Assembly (NCBI GenBank): GCA_903845065.1
Contig: CAIMWH010000152.1
Span: 1-51,297, forward strand
Direction of reading: 5' to 3'
DNA length: 51,297 bases
Origin: an uncultured Rhodospirillales bacterium
Lineage (GTDB): Bacteria; Pseudomonadota; Alphaproteobacteria; Acetobacterales; Acetobacteraceae
Part shown: piece by piece, positions 9,017 through 16,282 of the stretch
Layout of the letters: each line of letters begins with the position of its first letter
How positions within the stretch are numbered: position 1 is the first letter of the stretch
Notes under the pieces: generated by a model
Databases searched by the model: none
The model's input: only the letters and a program-made list of their open reading frames with translations
Told to the model about the DNA's origin: nothing
Translations under genes and position numbers: made by a program

Positions 9017-9091
9017 TGGGGCGTCGCCAAGCGGTAAGGCAGCGGATTTTGATTCCGCCATGCGGAGGTTCGATCCCTCCCGCCCCAGCCA
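9017..9091 (+). tRNA. tRNA-Gln (anticodon TTG)
   Basis: A full cloverleaf is present. The acceptor TGGGGCG pairs with CGCCCCA. The D arm is GCCAAGCGGTAAGGC. The anticodon stem GCGGA/TCCGC has loop TTTTGAT, so the anticodon is TTG. The T arm is GGAGG-TTCGATC-CCTCC. The discriminator G is followed by an encoded CCA. It reads CAA/CAG glutamine codons. Confidence 0.97.
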
Positions 9092-9918: not shown

Positions 9919-10623
9919 ATGACATTGCGCCCATCAAGCACCCGCCGCGCCGCCATCGCCGGCAGCCTGCTGGCCCTCATCGGGCTGGCCCGGCAAGGCC
10001 GCGCGGAGGTCGCCCACGTCATCCCGGCACCGGCGGCCGACGAGGCGCCTGGCGTTGCCGCCCAGGAAGTCGCGGTGTTCGCCGGCGGCTGTTTCTGGGG
10101 CGTCCAGGGGGTCTACCAGCACGTCACCGGGGTGCTCCGCGCGGTGTCCGGCTATGCCGGCGGCGAGGAAAAGACCGCCTATTACAGCGCCGTCGGCCGC
10201 GGCACCACCGGGCACGCCGAATCCGTCGAGGTGACGTTCGATCCGCGCCTGATCAGCCACGGCAGGCTGCTGCAGATCTATTTCTCGGTGGCGCATGACC
10301 CCACCCAGCTCAACCGCCAGGGCCCCGACACCGGCCCGCAGTATCGCTCCACCCTGTTCGTGCGCAACGCCGAGCAGGCCCGGGTGGCGAAGGCCTACAT
10401 CGCCCAGCTTGACGCCGCCAAGGTGTTCCCCACCCGCATCGTCACCACCATCGAGACCGACCGCGCCTTCTATCCCGCCGAGGACTACCATCAGGACTAC
10501 CTGACGATGAACCCGACGAACCCGTACATCGTCTACAATGACCTGCCCAAGATCGACGAACTCAAGCGCCTGTTCGCGACGGTGTATCGCGAGAAGCCGG
10601 TGCTGGTGGCGGCATCCGGCTGA
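9919..10623 (+). CDS. msrA: Exported peptide-methionine (S)-S-oxide reductase MsrA
   Basis: MsrA repairs methionine-S-sulfoxide in proteins. The GGCFWG motif places the nucleophilic cysteine at about residue 58, followed by GYAGG, the TGHAESVEV block and DPTQLNRQGPDTGPQYRS. With the start at ATG 9919 (AAGGGA about 7 nt upstream), the first 29 residues form an export signal with twin arginines (STRRAAIAG) and a hydrophobic run. The enzyme is thus probably periplasmic. No second cysteine exists in the 234 residues, so there is no internal resolving cysteine and an external reductant must regenerate it. A TATATT -10-like box lies at 9877-9882. Confidence 0.9.
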   Translation: MTLRPSSTRRAAIAGSLLALIGLARQGRAEVAHVIPAPAADEAPGVAAQEVAVFAGGCFWGVQGVYQHVTGVLRAVSGYAGGEEKTAYYSAVGRGTTGHAESVEVTFDPRLISHGRLLQIYFSVAHDPTQLNRQGPDTGPQYRSTLFVRNAEQARVAKAYIAQLDAAKVFPTRIVTTIETDRAFYPAEDYHQDYLTMNPTNPYIVYNDLPKIDELKRLFATVYREKPVLVAASG

Positions 10624-10632
10624 CCTTCCGGG

Positions 10633-10656
10633 CGTTATGCTGATTTCAGCATAGCC
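10633..10656. promoter_or_regulatory. ModE-like inverted repeat, site A
   Basis: CGTTAT, 12 nt, then ATAGCC (inverted half-site GGCTAT). The core TATGCTGA-TT-TCAGCATA is a perfect dyad. It lies between msrA and the aldehyde dehydrogenase gene, about 135 nt before the latter. It shares half-sites and spacing with four other sites near the two modA-type genes. It could alternatively be a small terminator hairpin for msrA, although no T run follows. Confidence 0.4.
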
Positions 10657-10791
10657 ATGCGCTGACAACATGGCAAAGTCCGCGAATCCGGGCGGTTGAT
10701 CCGGATCGCGCGGCTTCTCCAATCGTCGTATCCATGTGAACATAACCTATCGCCCGGCTGACGCGTGTGCCGGCAACAGGAGGAATCCACC

Positions 10792-12237
10792 ATGAAACAC
10801 TTCGCCGCCAATCGCGAAAACCAGCATTACGTCAACGGCGCCTGGGTCGAGCCGTTGGAGGCCAAGCGGCTGGATGTCATCAACCCCTCCACCGAGGAAG
10901 CCTTCATCCAGATCGCCGTTGGTGGCGCCGCCGACGTCGATCGTGCCGTGGCCGCCGCGCGCGCCGCATTCCCATCCTTTTCGCACACCTCGCGCCAGGA
11001 GCGGCTCGATCTGCTGCGCGCCATCCTCGCCGAATACAACAAGCGCAAGGCCGACATCGCCGCCACCCTCACCGAGGAAATGGGCGCGCCGGCCAAGATG
11101 TCGCTCGAACGCCAGGCCGCCACCGGCACCGCCCATCTGGCGAAAATGATCGAGACCCTGGAGACCTACGCGTTCGAATACATGCAGGGCCGCACCCTGA
11201 TCGCTCGCGAGCCGATCGGCGTGGTCGGCCAGATCACGCCGTGGAACTGGCCGATCAACCAGATCGTCTGCAAGGTGGCCCCGGCCATCGCGGCGGGCTG
11301 CACCATGGTGCTGAAGCCCTCCGAGGTGGCGCCGCTCAACGCCATCATCTGGTCCGAGGTGATGCATGCCGCGGGCGTGCCGGCCGGCGTCTACAACATG
11401 GTGCAGGGCGAGGGCGGCGTGGTGGGCAATGCGATGTCCTCGCACCCCGATATCGACATGATGTCCTTCACCGGCTCCACCCGGGCGGGCATTCTGGTGG
11501 CGCAGGCCTCGGCCGTCACGGTGAAGCGGGTGTCGCAGGAACTCGGCGGCAAGTCGGCCAATATCCTGCTGCCGGATGTCGATTTCAAATCGGCCGTCAC
11601 CAAGGGCGTTCTTGGGATGATGGGCAACTCCGGCCAGTCCTGCAACGCGCCCACCCGCATGTTCGTCCCCGCCGACCGGCACGACGAGGTGAAGGCCTAC
11701 GCCAAGGCGGCGGCCGAAACGGTGATCGTGGGGGATGTGAACGACCCCGCCACCACCATCGGCCCGGTGGTCAGCGAGGTGCAGTTCAACAAGATCCAGC
11801 GCCTCATCCAGGCCGGCATCGCCGAGGGCGCCGAACTCGTCACCGGCGGCCCGGGCCGGCCGGAGCACCTCAACCGCGGCTACTTCGTGCGCCCCACCGT
11901 GTTCGCCGGGGTGACCAACGAGATGACCATCGCGCGCGAGGAGATCTTCGGGCCGGTGCTGGCGATCCTGCCCTACAAGGATGAAGCCGAAGCGGTGCGG
12001 ATGGCCAATGACACCGTCTATGGCCTCGCCGCCTACGTGCAGTCCGGCGATATCGACCATGCCCGCAAGGTGGCGGCCCAGATGCGGGCCGGCAACGTCT
12101 ACCTGAACTATCCCGTGGGCGACATGGGCGCCCCGTTCGGCGGTTACAAGCAGTCCGGCAACGGGCGGGAATATGCCCATTGGGGCCTCGAGGAATTCCT
12201 CGAAATCAAGGGTGTCGTTGGCTACGAAGCCGCCTGA
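10792..12237 (+). CDS. NAD(P)-dependent aldehyde dehydrogenase
   Basis: Oxidises an aldehyde to the acid with NAD(P). The 481-residue protein has the ALDH order of motifs: ITPWNWPINQ (oxyanion asparagine), KPSEVAPL, FTGSTRAG, the general base in SQELGGKS (about Glu250), the catalytic cysteine in GNSGQSCNAP (about Cys284) and EEIFGPVLAI. The start at ATG 10792 has a strong AGGAGG. The closest relatives are broad-specificity ALDHs, so the substrate is not predictable. It is flanked by sites A and B, and a 16-bp hairpin follows directly. Cytoplasmic. Confidence 0.93.
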   Translation: MKHFAANRENQHYVNGAWVEPLEAKRLDVINPSTEEAFIQIAVGGAADVDRAVAAARAAFPSFSHTSRQERLDLLRAILAEYNKRKADIAATLTEEMGAPAKMSLERQAATGTAHLAKMIETLETYAFEYMQGRTLIAREPIGVVGQITPWNWPINQIVCKVAPAIAAGCTMVLKPSEVAPLNAIIWSEVMHAAGVPAGVYNMVQGEGGVVGNAMSSHPDIDMMSFTGSTRAGILVAQASAVTVKRVSQELGGKSANILLPDVDFKSAVTKGVLGMMGNSGQSCNAPTRMFVPADRHDEVKAYAKAAAETVIVGDVNDPATTIGPVVSEVQFNKIQRLIQAGIAEGAELVTGGPGRPEHLNRGYFVRPTVFAGVTNEMTIAREEIFGPVLAILPYKDEAEAVRMANDTVYGLAAYVQSGDIDHARKVAAQMRAGNVYLNYPVGDMGAPFGGYKQSGNGREYAHWGLEEFLEIKGVVGYEAA

Positions 12238-12247
12238 GTGCGGTCAA

Positions 12248-12285
12248 GGCGTTCGGTTATGCAGAATTGTGCATAACCGAACGCC
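12248..12285. terminator. Perfect 16-bp hairpin after the aldehyde dehydrogenase
   Basis: The arms 12248-12263 and 12270-12285 are perfectly complementary around a GAATTG loop. The position, 11 nt after the stop, suits a terminator. The lack of a T tract, and the fact that its centre is one of the ModE-like boxes (site B), leave open that its main role is as a DNA operator. Confidence 0.5.
12255..12278. promoter_or_regulatory. ModE-like inverted repeat, site B
   Basis: GGTTAT, 12 nt, ATAACC: a perfectly symmetric version of the repeated site, embedded in the longer hairpin. It is centred 60 bp from site C, upstream of the modA gene. Both half-sites carry G instead of C at the first position compared with sites C, D and E. 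Confidence 0.45.
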
Positions 12286-12314
12286 ACCCGGCCTGGACGC
12301 CGCCTGTGGTGCCT

Positions 12315-12338
12315 CGCTATGCTCGACGTAATATATCG
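12315..12338. promoter_or_regulatory. ModE-like inverted repeat, site C, in the modA promoter
   Basis: CGCTAT (12315-12320), 12 nt, ATATCG (12333-12338, inverted half-site CGATAT). It ends 27 nt before the modA start. TAATAT (12329-12334), a good -10 box, lies inside it, so a bound repressor would block the promoter. Confidence 0.55.
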
Positions 12339-12365
12339 ACGACGGGCAACCGAAGGGACTTCCCC

Positions 12366-13115
12366 ATGCGCACGCTGCTGCTTCTGTCCATGCTGCTCGC
12401 ACCGCTGCAGGTGCAGGCCGCCGAACTCACCATGTTCGCCGCCGCCAGCCTCACCGAGGCGATGAAGGACATTTCGGCGCTGTGGGCCAAGGCCGGCCAC
12501 GAGCCGCTGCGGCTCTCCTTCGGCGCCAGTTCCACCCTCGCCCGCCAGGTGGAGCAGGGCGCGCCGGCCAACCTGTTCGCCTCCGCCGACGAGAAATGGG
12601 TGGACTACCTGGCCGAACGCAAGTTGCTCGCCGATGACACCCGCAAATCCCTCCTCGGCAATGACCTCGTGCTGATCGTGCCGGCCGACCGCGCGCGCAA
12701 AATCGCCGTCGACGCCACGCTCGACATCGCGGCCCTGCTCGGCCCCACCGGGCGGCTCGCCACCGGGGACCCGAAGCACGTCCCCGTCGGCCTCTACGCC
12801 GAGCAGGCGCTGCGCAACCTCGGCCTGTGGGACAAGGTACAGCCGCACCTCGCCAGCACCGAGGATGTGCGCGCCGCCCTGCTGCTGGTGGAGCGCGGCG
12901 AGGCGCCGGCCGGCATCGTCTACGCAACGGACGCCGCAGTCTCCAAGGGCGTCAGCATCGCCGGCGCCTTCCCGGAGGCCAGCCACGACCCGATTTCCTA
13001 TCCTTTCGCGGTGACCAAGGTCGGCGACAATGCCGAGGCGCGCGCCTTCATGGCGTTCCTGGCCGGCCAGGACGCGCGCGCGGTGTTCGTGCGGCGCGGC
13101 TTCAGGGTGCGGTAG
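12366..13115 (+). CDS. modA: Molybdate ABC transporter substrate-binding protein ModA
   Basis: Periplasmic oxyanion receptor of 249 residues with a Sec signal (MRTLLLLSMLLAPLQVQA). The ModA pattern is clear: LTMFAAASLTEAM with the first binding serine, LSFGASSTLARQVEQGAPANLFASAD with the second, and GIVYATDA near the C-terminal binding tyrosine. GAAGGGA lies 8-9 nt before the chosen ATG; the longer frame runs through sites B and C. No modB or modC lies in the window, so permease and ATPase must be elsewhere. Its 3' end overlaps the converging DUF2325 gene by 14 nt. Confidence 0.92.
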   Translation: MRTLLLLSMLLAPLQVQAAELTMFAAASLTEAMKDISALWAKAGHEPLRLSFGASSTLARQVEQGAPANLFASADEKWVDYLAERKLLADDTRKSLLGNDLVLIVPADRARKIAVDATLDIAALLGPTGRLATGDPKHVPVGLYAEQALRNLGLWDKVQPHLASTEDVRAALLLVERGEAPAGIVYATDAAVSKGVSIAGAFPEASHDPISYPFAVTKVGDNAEARAFMAFLAGQDARAVFVRRGFRVR

Positions 13116-14370
13116 CGAGCCGCGCCATCCCGGCGAGGAACGCGCTGGCGCTGGCGGACCGCAGGGCGACGAACGGGCGGCCCGATTTCGCGCAGCCACG
13201 TTTGACGGCGCCCACCGCGCGGTGGCTCACGCAGTCCACCGGGAACATCACCACATCGGCCCGCGCGATCAGGCTGGCCAGCAATGTGTCATTGTCCTCG
13301 ATGCCGCCATCATGTTCGAGCAGCACGGCGCCGGCCCGCGCGGAGGTGTGGCGCAGGGCGGCGAGGAGCTGCGGCCGGCCGCCGACGTAGAGAATGGTGG
13401 TGTTGTCCAATCGCGGCAGCCCGGCCGGCGCGGCGGGCGTGGCATCCACGAGCAGGGGCTCGATGGCCGCGAGATCGGCGCGGACCGCCGCGGCGTCCTG
13501 TTCGGCATCCGTCCGCAAGCCGCGCTCGCGCAGCACCTCCGCCCGCAGCGCCGCACGATCCTGCTCGGCCGCCTGGCGGCGCGCGGCCTCGCGGCCGAGG
13601 CGGGCCTCAAGGTCGATCACCAAGGCACGCAGCGCCGCGTCGCCGCCCGATTCGGCTTGGGGTGGTTGATCGGCTATCCGCTGGGCGAGGGCCGCGCGCA
13701 GATCGCGGATGGTCGCGTCGCGGCTGACGATCGCCGCCTGCATCGCCGCCTGCTGGCGGGCCACCTTGTCCTCCAGGACGGTGCGCGCCGCCTCCAGGTC
13801 CCGCAGCCGCCGGATGTCGGCGCGATTGGCCGCCCCCACCAGGTGCGAGAGCATGTGCACGTCGCCGAACGCCTCGCCGAGAAGCGCCCGGCTGCTCGCG
13901 GGATGCGTCATCACCGCCCAGTAGGCGCCCGGGATATCGCCGCCCTCCACCGCCACACGCCAGAACTGCCGCACCTCGTCCTCGCCGCGCGCCCGGGCGA
14001 AATGGTTGATGGTGAGCCGGTGGCGGGTATCGAGAGTCTTGTGCAGCAGCTTGCCCGCGACATCGTGGCGGGCGGCGATGGTGACGCCCATCTTGTGCGC
14101 CGCGTGATCGTCCACATCCGCGGCGGCGAGGCCGAGTTTGACCAGCAGGTGGCGCAAGTCGCCGGTGGCCAGGCAGGTGCCGACGATGGAGCAGTGCATC
14201 CAGGGGGTGATTTCCCACAGCCGGGTGCGGGTCGGCGCCGCTTGATGGGCCGGCGCCTCCCGCGTCACCAGCGGGGCCGGCGGCACGCGTACGCTGAATG
14301 TGCGCGTGAGCGCGGCGGGTGGTGCCGCCAAGTCGCCCCAGGCCGCCGGGCTCCACTGGATCACTGACAT
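13102..14370 (-). CDS. DUF2325 protein with histidine/cysteine-rich N-terminal domain
   Basis: 422 residues in three parts. Residues about 50-180 form a helical domain rich in potential metal ligands (MHCSIVGTC at 58-66, DDHAAH at 87-92, several further histidines to His176). Residues about 185-305 are a charged coiled coil. Residues 325-415 are the DUF2325 domain (ILYVGGRPQLL, EHDGGIEDN, FPVDCVSH, AVKRGC). The family's role is unknown to me. I chose ATG 14370 because AGGA lies 6 nt upstream; the longer frame crosses site D. The gene lies between two ModA-type genes and diverges from the second. Confidence 0.8.
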   Translation of the reverse strand: MSVIQWSPAAWGDLAAPPAALTRTFSVRVPPAPLVTREAPAHQAAPTRTRLWEITPWMHCSIVGTCLATGDLRHLLVKLGLAAADVDDHAAHKMGVTIAARHDVAGKLLHKTLDTRHRLTINHFARARGEDEVRQFWRVAVEGGDIPGAYWAVMTHPASSRALLGEAFGDVHMLSHLVGAANRADIRRLRDLEAARTVLEDKVARQQAAMQAAIVSRDATIRDLRAALAQRIADQPPQAESGGDAALRALVIDLEARLGREAARRQAAEQDRAALRAEVLRERGLRTDAEQDAAAVRADLAAIEPLLVDATPAAPAGLPRLDNTTILYVGGRPQLLAALRHTSARAGAVLLEHDGGIEDNDTLLASLIARADVVMFPVDCVSHRAVGAVKRGCAKSGRPFVALRSASASAFLAGMARLATAP

Positions 14371-14379
14371 GCCGATCCT

Positions 14380-14403
14380 CGCTATGTCATTATTTGCATA
14401 ACG
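14380..14403. promoter_or_regulatory. ModE-like inverted repeat, site D, upstream of the DUF2325 gene
   Basis: CGCTAT (14380-14385), 12 nt, ATAACG (14398-14403, inverted half-site CGTTAT). It abuts the ribosome binding site of the minus-strand DUF2325 gene. On that strand AATAAT (14394-14389), a near-consensus -10 box, sits in its centre, giving a very short leader. Confidence 0.55.
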
Positions 14404-14483
14404 ATCCTGCCCGGCATTGCCCGCATCCGCAAGCCCCGCATCGCCCTCGAATGCGTCGACCACGGCTCTTTCGGTTGCATTAT

Positions 14484-14507
14484 CGCTATGCTAATTCGAA
14501 TATGTCG
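14484..14507. promoter_or_regulatory. ModE-like inverted repeat, site E, upstream of the ModA-like fusion gene
   Basis: CGCTAT (14484-14489), 12 nt, ATGTCG (14502-14507, inverted half-site CGACAT, one deviation). It ends 19 nt before the start codon at 14527. With site D it occupies the divergent promoter region. Confidence 0.45.
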
Positions 14508-14526: not shown

Positions 14527-15747
14527 ATGCGACGGATTTTCATCCCCGCCTTCGCCTTCCTGGCCCTGTCTACCGCCGTCGCCAGTGCCGACACCTTCCA
14601 GTTGAGCGGTGCCGGCAGCCTCACTGGCGTGATGTCCGATCTGATACGACGTTTCCCGGCCGGGACGGACACCATCGCCCCACCCGAGTTCGGCCCATCC
14701 GGGCTGATGCGCCAGAAAATCGAGGCCGGCGCCCCGGCTGACCTGTTCACCTCCGCCGACATGGCGCACGCCCGCGCCCTCGTTGCCGGGCGGGCCGAGC
14801 GCATGGTGATCCACTTCACCCGCAACCAGCTTTGCGCCCTCGCCCGCCCCGCCATCGGCCTCACGCCCGCGAACATGCTGGATCGCCTGCTCGATCCCGC
14901 CGTGCGCATCGCCACCTCCACGCCGGGCGCCGATCCGGGCGGCGACTATGCCTGGGCGGTGTTCGCCCGTGCCGAGGCGCTGCACCCCGGCGCCCGCGCC
15001 GCGCTGGAAGCCAAGGCGCAGCCCTTGGTGGGCGGCGGCGCCAAAACCCCGCTGCTGGTGCCCGGCAAGGGTGCGGTCGAGGGCGTGTTCCTCGCCGACC
15101 GGGCCGATGTCATGCTGGGCTATTGCAGCAGCGGCGAGCCGGTGCGGCGCGAAATCCCTGCCCTCGTCAACGTACCGCTGCCGGCCGGGCTCGCCGTCGG
15201 GCCGGCCTACGGCATGGTGCTTCTCAACGCCAAGCCGGTCACCCTGCGCTTTGCCGCCTTCGTGATGTCCGAGACCGGGCAATCCGTGCTGCGCGCCTAT
15301 GGGTTTGATCCGGTGGCCCTCGCCGAGCAGCCTGCCCCGGTGCCCGGCGTTTTCGTGCAGCGGCGCGGCCTGACGGCCCGGCTCCTCGCGCCCGACCGTC
15401 TCGCCGCCCTTCCCCCGTTCACCCAGAAAATCACCCCGAGCCACGGCGACAAGGCCAGCGAACTGACCGGCCCGCTGCTGTGGGATGTGCTGGCCGCCGC
15501 CGGCGCCATCGACCCCGCCAAACCGGCCGAGCAGGTGCGCCTGACCGTCCGCGTCACCGGCGCCGACGGCTACACCGCCGTCATCGCCCTCGCCGAATTG
15601 TCGCCCGAATTCGCCGGCCACCCGGTCCTGCTCGCCACCACCCTCAACGGCACCGCCCTCCCGCCCGGCAGCCTGCGCCTGGTGGTGCCCGGCGAAAAAC
15701 GTGGCGGCCGCTCGGTTCGCGACGTGGTACGCATCGACGTCGACTGA
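14527..15747 (+). CDS. ModA-like substrate-binding protein fused to a molybdopterin-binding-type domain
   Basis: A 406-residue exported protein (signal to about residue 21, ASA). Residues about 24-260 are a ModA-like receptor: [33 protein letters not shown] and TSAD, all in the ModA order. Residues about 280-405 resemble the molybdopterin-binding domain of the sulfite oxidase family, in the short form: [35 protein letters not shown] and [18 protein letters not shown]. That domain has no cysteine, so it lacks the molybdenum-ligating thiolate of true sulfite oxidases. GGAG precedes the ATG by about 7 nt. It is followed after 22 nt by a TrmO-like gene. Confidence 0.82.
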
Positions 15748-15769: not shown

Positions 15770-16282
15770 ATGGTACGCGAAAGCGAAATCCGCCCCGGCG
15801 AAATCACCGTCGACCCGCCGGCCGCAACCGATGCCGGGCTGGTCTTCATCGGCCGCATCCACACCCCCTGGACATCGCGGATGCACACCCCCCGCCAGGG
15901 CCGGCATGATGGCCCGGTGTGCCGTATCGAGGTTTTCGAACCCTGGGTGCCGGCGCTGGACGGGGTCAGCCGGCACGAGCGTCTGGAGGTGATCTACTGG
16001 CTCCACCTGTCGCGCCGCGACCTGGTGCACCAGAGCCCGGCCAATGACGGCACCACCCGCGGCACCTTCTCCATCCGCTCGCCGGTGCGGCCGAACCCGC
16101 TCGGCACCTCCATCGTCAAGCTGCTGCGCATCGAGGGCGGCAGCCTGTTCATCCAGGGGATCGACTGCCTCGACGGCACGCCATTGCTCGACCTCAAGCC
16201 CGATCGCACCCTGTTCACCCCAATCGCGCCGCCGCAGGAGGGTGACTTCCAGGTGGCCGCGGCCGCCCACAAACCAGCGTAG
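15770..16282 (+). CDS. TrmO-like tRNA methyltransferase (TsaA/UPF0066 family)
   Basis: Family members such as TrmO methylate N6-threonylcarbamoyladenosine at position 37 of tRNA with SAM. Shown here: [12 protein letters not shown] at the N-terminus, [13 protein letters not shown] (typical RSPxRPNPIG) and [15 protein letters not shown]. At 170 residues it is a short form without the C-terminal domain of the E. coli protein. ATG 15770 is preceded by GAAGGA at 8 nt. It is probably cotranscribed with the ModA-like fusion gene, which could put it under the same control; whether its substrate is tRNA is not certain. Confidence 0.75.

Follow-up and report, generated by a model that had tools for sequence, protein, structure and literature searches.

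A candidate ModE-type molybdenum regulon with unusual members in an uncultured Rhodospirillales bacterium

Introduction

A contig of 51,297 nucleotides from an uncultured Rhodospirillales bacterium of the Acetobacteraceae (assembly GCA_903845065.1, contig CAIMWH010000152.1; the whole stretch is called the window below) carries, within a few kilobases, a gene for a molybdate-binding protein (modA), a gene for a ModA-like fusion protein, a gene of the DUF2325 family and an aldehyde dehydrogenase (ALDH) gene. A preliminary description, made from the DNA letters, reported five inverted repeats in the gaps between these genes, with half-sites close to CGNTAT and a constant gap of 12 nt, and proposed that they are ModE-like operators of a molybdenum regulon with members not usually counted in one. 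The question is whether these repeats belong to a molybdenum regulator, and what an aldehyde dehydrogenase and a conserved protein of no known function would then have to do with molybdenum.

The proposal of a candidate molybdenum regulon with unusual members is supported by the small number of exact sites in the genome, half of them in this locus, by the presence of a ModE-type protein and by conservation in related organisms. Sequence establishes the sites with their spacing and conservation, the genes that follow them and the occurrence of a ModE-type protein. Very probably, the locus is part of a ModE-type regulon in which a regulator that consists of a DNA-binding domain only would repress modA, the fusion gene (with trmO), the DUF2325 gene and the ALDH gene in dependence on molybdate.

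Predicted operators in the window

All five repeats (10633–10656, 12255–12278, 12315–12338, 14380–14403 and 14484–14507) have the coordinates, half-sites and 12-nt gap originally reported, and they are of unequal quality: three are strong, the one at 10633 is weak, the one at 12255 is doubtful, and a further site at 10724–10747 had been overlooked. The operator layout, palindromic halves CGNTAT and ATANCG at a distance of 12 nt, is found without mismatch at 12315 and 14380 and with one mismatch at 14484. The first of these is the predicted ModE-type operator of modA (12366–13115, + strand; NF007958, 277 bits, cut-off 253), with 27 nt to the ATG. The second ends 9 nt before the start of the DUF2325 gene (13102–14370, − strand; Pfam DUF2325, 1.2e-15), and the third 19 nt before the start of the fusion gene (14527–15747, + strand), which encodes a ModA-like protein with a C-terminal Oxidored_molyb-type domain (SBP_bac_11, 9.7e-32; PF00174, 2.8e-07).

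For the ALDH gene (10792–12237, + strand; NAD(P)-dependent family, Pfam Aldedh 2.6e-152), among the 25 NCBIfam models listed no equivalog reaches its cut-off. The site that the preliminary description placed before this gene, 10633–10656, is present, with one mismatch and 135 nt to the ATG, but it is weak; the stronger and probably main ALDH operator is CGTCGTATCCATGTGAACATAACC at 10724–10747, 44 nt from the ATG and with 3 of 10 fixed positions mismatched. For the predicted operators of modA, DUF2325 and the fusion gene and for the stronger of the two ALDH sites, the distance from the end of the site to the start codon is 9–44 nt. Promoter-like matches are also frequent (four in 4 kb, against 0.5 expected): the site at 14380 contains the −10 element of one on the + strand, that at 14484 overlaps one on the − strand, and each of these two is directed at the more distant gene of the divergent pair.

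Pattern counts in the window were compared with 100 dinucleotide shuffles. SGNTAT-N12-ATANCS with at most one mismatch gave seven matches, five of them being the repeats reported earlier, whereas the shuffles gave a mean of 1.20 and a maximum of 5, with none of the 100 reaching 7. In a looser test, CGNTAT-N12-ATANCG at up to two mismatches was found 11 times in the whole window against 8.95 expected, and 28 of the 100 shuffles had at least 11, which is not significant by itself. A random scatter over the genome would have spoken against a regulon; the exact pattern CGNTAT-N12-ATANCG occurs at four places in the 5.9-Mb draft genome, two of which are within this locus, and the reversed control pattern, also exact, occurs at one. 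The other two of the four exact palindromes are probably due to chance: no clear gene follows C183:744, and C274:6654 has long open frames beside it on both strands. With a G-extended pattern, picked after the sites were already known, 28 distinct places were obtained at up to one mismatch, 4 of the 28 inside these 3.9 kb; at up to two mismatches the number (394) was near that of the control (361).

Sites were also scored with a matrix of 28 positions, built from 67 perfect sites in 79 loci of relatives with the window and a sister species left out. The five highest ranks in the window went to 14484 (28.1), 12315 (28.1), 14380 (25.9), 10724 (16.1) and 10633 (13.2). Forty block shuffles of the window reached 20.9 at best (21.1 with a larger training set; mean best 5.8), and only 14484, 12315 and 14380 beat every one of them.

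The preliminary description had noted that the Escherichia coli modA operator has the same arrangement, and the published ModE consensus, ATCGNTATATA-N6-TATATANCGAT, indeed has a matching layout (PMC545781; most papers given by PMC number, here and below, are cited from the parts consulted). In the inner bases, the window sites mostly have TATGC, where that consensus has TATATA-N6-TATATA. Among 68 perfect sites of relatives, the fraction with A at position 7 is 0.85 and that with T at position 8 is 0.84.

Conservation in the sister species and in relatives

Conservation in related genomes, on which the proposal also depended, was found: the operators of the window are conserved in the sister species, and many relatives have such sites at their DUF2325 and ALDH genes. 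In the sister locus, the matrix ranks 1 to 4 are taken by the sites before the DUF2325 gene, modA, the fusion gene and the ALDH gene, all of them above every one of 40 shuffles (best 10.5), and the same four operators hold the top four ranks in the window. The block at 10724–10747 is more conserved in the sister than the flanking sequence, 10633–10656 aligns with a weaker sister site, and the outer halves of the sites at 14380 and 14484 are kept. The modA promoters of the two species align poorly, and both contain a high-scoring site. The fusion protein is 81% identical to its sister counterpart.

For a broader comparison, GTDB contigs were scanned by protein patterns for DUF2325, which gave 360 relatives, and the best 80 loci, selected by protein and not by site, were kept. 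In the region scanned (400 bp before the protein match together with the first 60 of the match itself), 33 of 80 loci had CGNTAT-N12-ATANCG exactly and 63 of 80 had it with at most one mismatch, where the whole-locus background predicts 5.2. Spacers of 11 and 13 gave no exact match and one locus each at one mismatch. The record titles include Rhodopila, Reyranella, Hyphomicrobium, Methylobacterium, Inquilinus, Bradyrhizobium, Cupriavidus, Duganella and Paraburkholderia, not all of them with a site. One locus with two ModE-like sites (L149) is in a record titled Mycobacterium sp. KBS0706, perhaps misnamed; the other titles are proteobacterial or unspecific. Of 34 plasmid records with DUF2325, 13 were examined, 6 of them without annotation in the stretch concerned except L114, and 11 of these 13 fall in the DUF2325 cluster of the family tally given below. 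Annotated neighbours of DUF2325 are modABC, Glp and a winged helix-turn-helix (HTH) protein in Methylorubrum, modA, ALDH and a winged HTH protein in Aureimonas, and NifQ and a LysR-type HTH protein in Caballeronia.

The ALDH genes behave in a similar way. Among 56 genes in 42 loci, counted after removal of duplicates and of the site-selected loci L225, L228 and L234 (before removal, 40 of 70 genes had a site), CGNTAT-N12-ATANCG stands upstream of 29 with at most one mismatch and of 19 exactly. Spacers of 9, 11, 13 and 15 gave 0 of 56 each, a spacer of 14 gave 5 and one of 10 gave 8. An earlier count, restricted to ALDH genes that do not stand divergent to DUF2325, gave a site at 17 of 31. Sites were found at six ALDH groups that are less than 55% identical to one another. 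These are not six independent cases, because sites and promoters are shared: in L123, L174 and L184 one site is common to an ALDH from a smaller group and a divergent one from the main group, and other site-bearing ALDH genes have their promoter in common with DUF2325 or with a gene of ModE type.

Fourteen relatives picked for having DUF2325 were scanned genome-wide with the strict pattern (at most one mismatch). It occurred at 32 places, 15 of them within the DUF2325 locus, as against 3 for the reversed control; two of the 14 genomes had none. Ten of the 17 sites outside DUF2325 loci were looked at. An ALDH gene adjoins two of these sites, one of which has an ALDH on both sides, and the two contigs concerned carry no DUF2325 (each genome has one DUF2325 match, on another contig). 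A ModA-type protein is at another site and, as judged only by sequence similarity, modA at yet another. The others stand at a Peripla_BP_2 protein, at a methionine sulfoxide reductase (MsrA) facing a molybdopterin oxidoreductase and at a universal stress protein, and the remainder at a weak SMP-30-like protein, a weak SLBB protein and one gene without assignment.

A tally of families behind sites in 93 loci gave DUF2325 in 74 loci, ModE-type proteins in 21, ALDH in 21, class II binding proteins in 10, ModA in 10, TrmO in 10, alcohol dehydrogenases in 8 and Glp in 7. Most of these names come from the sequence and annotation of members and not from profile searches, clusters that are antisense or of unclear frame are excluded, and some loci are redundant (L106 equals L170; L189, L194 and L197 share sequence). 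Counted per gene in the 80 loci, after removal of matches not aligned in the initial quarter of the query and of genes too close to the end of a locus, a site precedes 9 of 18 ModA genes, 18 of 36 ModE-type genes and, within 350 bp, 8 of 24 TrmO genes.

The candidate ModE-type regulator

It was noted earlier that the window contains no ModE gene, and this is correct: the genome has eight ModE-model matches (E ≤ 1), all of them on contigs other than that of the window. A ModE-type DNA-binding protein of 128 amino acids is encoded on contig C361 (TIGR00637, 84.3 bits, E 4.8e-24), but it scores below the curated cut-off of 98.5 and no Mop domain was matched in it; because it is below that cut-off, it is called ModE-type here and not ModE proper. 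In the sister species, its homologue (72% identity; TIGR00637, 87.6 bits) lies between the ALDH gene and modA, and two additional ModE-type matches are present in that genome. The HTH proteins beside DUF2325 in the Methylorubrum, Aureimonas and Caballeronia plasmid loci have TIGR00637 scores of 81–95 bits.

The single Mop match in the genome (E ≤ 0.01), below cut-off, is on contig C15 near modB and probably belongs to an ABC ATPase. The only modB above cut-off is found on that contig as well (G000:C15:10544–11173, L198), and no modA was seen in the stretch read there. The modA of the window may serve a transporter encoded elsewhere.

Alternative explanations

Several observations weigh against the proposed regulon. 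Both ALDH sites of the window, 10724 and 10633, score within the range of the 40 shuffles; an earlier matrix run (68 sites, 20 shuffles) had put both above the best shuffle (10.7). Because of their place inside the 40-shuffle range, the case for them is based chiefly on their conservation and on the sites at homologous genes. As to the regulator, all five ModE-type proteins scored fall under the TIGR00637 cut-off and have no Mop match, the ModE-type gene is on a separate contig of a draft assembly with a contamination of 4.37%, and the 400 bp upstream of it contain no site even at up to three mismatches. Moreover, ModE-type genes are common, being present in 171 of 249 genomes of the family and in 18 of the 20 of those with DUF2325, and with such a high base rate their co-occurrence with DUF2325 is weak evidence; the two DUF2325 genomes without a ModE-type gene are 73% and 67% complete. 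A site with at most one mismatch is missing at 17 of the 80 DUF2325 loci and 27 of the 56 ALDH genes, DUF2325 of Azospirillum brasilense has neither a site nor mod neighbours, and the 80 loci are not evenly spread, 14 being titled Methylobacterium and two pairs sharing sequence. A spacer of 10 upstream of DUF2325 also gave matches, one exact and 35 of 80 at one mismatch, which most likely arise from TATAT repeats in the interior of the same sites.

Three other readings of the repeats have to be considered. That they are chance palindromes would agree with the window count at up to two mismatches, which is not above expectation, but the spacer-specific enrichment in relatives, the ranking by an independent matrix and the conservation in the sister make this hardly credible. 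Hairpins or terminators at the 3' ends of genes could explain part of the set. The repeat at 12255–12278, described earlier as an operator, is the core of a perfect hairpin directly after the ALDH stop codon; a fragment of 63 nt has a folding energy of −37.1 kcal/mol and a stem of 16 bp (z −6.2), and the matrix gives it a score of 2.3 and rank 8 in the window. It is likely a 3' hairpin rather than an operator. The site at 10633–10656 also starts 9 nt past the stop codon of the msrA gene. A terminator scan calls neither of the two, the hairpin at 12255 being without a T run, and the sites at 12315, 14380, 14484 and 10724, near start codons and with top scores, are not amenable to such an explanation, which makes it very improbable for the set as a whole.

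It is also conceivable that the sites merely resemble ModE boxes and belong to another winged-helix regulator that responds to a different stimulus, for instance oxidative or aldehyde stress. The ModE-type proteins found here have no molybdate-binding part, msrA adjoins the ALDH gene in the window, and a universal stress protein gene lies behind one of the ten outside sites looked at. In Campylobacter, light-driven oxidative stress strongly induces a DUF2325 protein that is far shorter (104 amino acids), and ModE of that organism was inferred to be unresponsive to this stress (PMC9426514). The sites are nevertheless also found before modA, ModE-type, Glp and further binding-protein genes and fit the layout of the published ModE consensus (PMC545781), and on balance another regulator seems unlikely.

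Proposed mechanism and comparison with known systems

In the ModE-type regulon that we favour, the regulator would have a DNA-binding domain only and be encoded on another contig here and within the locus in the sister. With ample molybdate, it would occupy the palindromes and switch off modA, the fusion gene (with trmO), DUF2325 and ALDH; in molybdenum shortage modA, the fusion gene, DUF2325 and ALDH would be jointly expressed. Repression is proposed because of the position of the sites close to starts and promoter-like matches and because of the known behaviour of ModE. Molybdenum thus probably acts as a repressing signal on the regulon, and we infer that the ModE-type protein binds the sites, with molybdate as the signal and repression as the effect.

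The ModE regulons of E. coli and Geobacter sulfurreducens likewise have CGNTAT-N12-ATANCG operators and control mod genes (PMC545781, PMC2700814). The present system would differ in that the regulator lacks the two molybdate-binding domains, in the inner bases, which are often TATGC, and in the addition of DUF2325, ALDH and TrmO to the candidate targets. A ModE with the DNA-binding domain only, and with an unclear sensing mechanism, is described for Desulfovibrio, but the operator predicted there is CGGTCACG-N14-CGTGACCG (PMC545781), whereas the sites reported here have the E. coli layout. What seems to be new is that operators of E. coli layout are combined with a ModE-type regulator which is divergent and lacks a sensing domain, and with candidate targets of an unusual kind. 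DUF2325, ALDH and TrmO were not encountered as ModE targets in the literature searched, in the parts consulted, and an earlier description is possible. In the main texts examined on DUF2325, as far as consulted, molybdenum is not mentioned, and among the papers listed on ALDH and molybdenum none, judged by titles and abstract openings, reports such a link.

Why would an ALDH be included? The genome has nine MoCoBD_1 genes of the molybdenum hydroxylase family, and of these nine, the eight that were scanned match models for 4-hydroxybenzoyl-CoA reductase and for glyceraldehyde, xanthine and CO dehydrogenases, in no case above cut-off. It is plausible that ALDH serves as a molybdenum-free substitute for molybdenum-dependent aldehyde oxidation; the gene of this isozyme stands behind a predicted molybdenum-regulator site in 29 of 56 cases, where ModE as the owner of the site is inferred. 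This suggests that bacteria short of molybdenum turn from aldehyde oxidation by molybdenum-dependent enzymes to ALDH, which would be a cofactor economy of the kind described for nitrogenase, B12 and nickel (PMC6925177, PMC545781). In Rhodobacter capsulatus, the ModE-like MopA and MopB repress anfA, the activator gene of the molybdenum-free nitrogenase, when molybdate is ample (PMC6925177). As would be the case here, molybdate uptake and a molybdenum-free alternative enzyme are under ModE-like control, although the alternative there is Fe-nitrogenase and here aldehyde dehydrogenases. For isozyme switching by B12, nickel and iron, the cofactor is predicted to repress the enzyme that does not need it; those examples do not concern molybdenum or ALDH (PMC545781). 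In Pseudomonas putida, a molybdate transporter has been linked to furfural oxidation (PMC7545826).

A wider view, put forward tentatively and with somewhat less than even confidence, is that of a molybdenum-sparing response in Alpha- and some Betaproteobacteria. A sensing-domain-less ModE-type repressor would control uptake, molybdenum-free substitutes and DUF2325, which would be a new protein of molybdenum homeostasis and might have a part in the sensing step that is missing; the substitutes would comprise several ALDH groups, an alcohol dehydrogenase and in places methionine sulfoxide reductases. Molybdenum supply would then govern more than molybdenum uptake. For DUF2325, a conserved family without known function, the spacing-specific predicted operator in 63 of 80 loci suggests a tie to molybdenum supply.

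The DUF2325 protein

The structural model of the DUF2325 protein (pLDDT 85, pTM 0.50) shows a helical domain at the N-terminus, a pair of long helices and, at the C-terminus, an alpha/beta domain. Compared with solved PDB structures, the model gave no match at E ≤ 0.001 and the sequence gave matches of coiled-coil type only (best E 0.0011), and the attempt to derive a function from structure was dropped for lack of an informative match. The residues invariant in 48 aligned proteins (of 50 chosen, leaving out L185, with an in-frame stop, and L108) include H59, C60, C66, H92, H156, H172, H176, H353 and H383, a pattern of histidines and cysteines that is compatible with metal or redox chemistry.

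Neighbouring genes and further observations

Downstream of the fusion gene, a TrmO-type tRNA methyltransferase is encoded at 15770–16282 (+ strand; TIGR00104, 99.2 bits, cut-off 93.25). With a gap of only 22 nt, trmO is likely cotranscribed with the fusion gene. Upstream of the ALDH gene lies msrA (9919–10623, + strand), the product of which, a peptide methionine sulfoxide reductase (Pfam PMSR, 1.7e-54), is putatively exported according to a signal peptide recognised by eye. Its membership of the regulon is a weak lead. None of three MsrA genes in the 80 loci has a site within 350 bp, and neither has any in the 6 loci with MsrA among 113 (a set in which two pairs come from the same genomes), and it was rejected as a general member; one MsrA in relative G010 has a site 79 nt upstream. 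In that genome a ModE-like site (L234, G010:C65:3650) is located between msrA, which is followed by an ALDH-like start recognised by eye, and a molybdopterin oxidoreductase gene.

Separate small proteins in relatives resemble the short Oxidored_molyb-type domain of the fusion protein, and some of them are encoded behind a ModE-like site, as judged by sequence. ModE-like sites also stand before genes for TonB-dependent receptor-like proteins (L106:19984 and L196:4670; four loci in the tally, with L106 equal to L170), for which an outer-membrane route for molybdenum is a possible role. A tRNA-like sequence was recognised by eye at 9020–9090 of the window.

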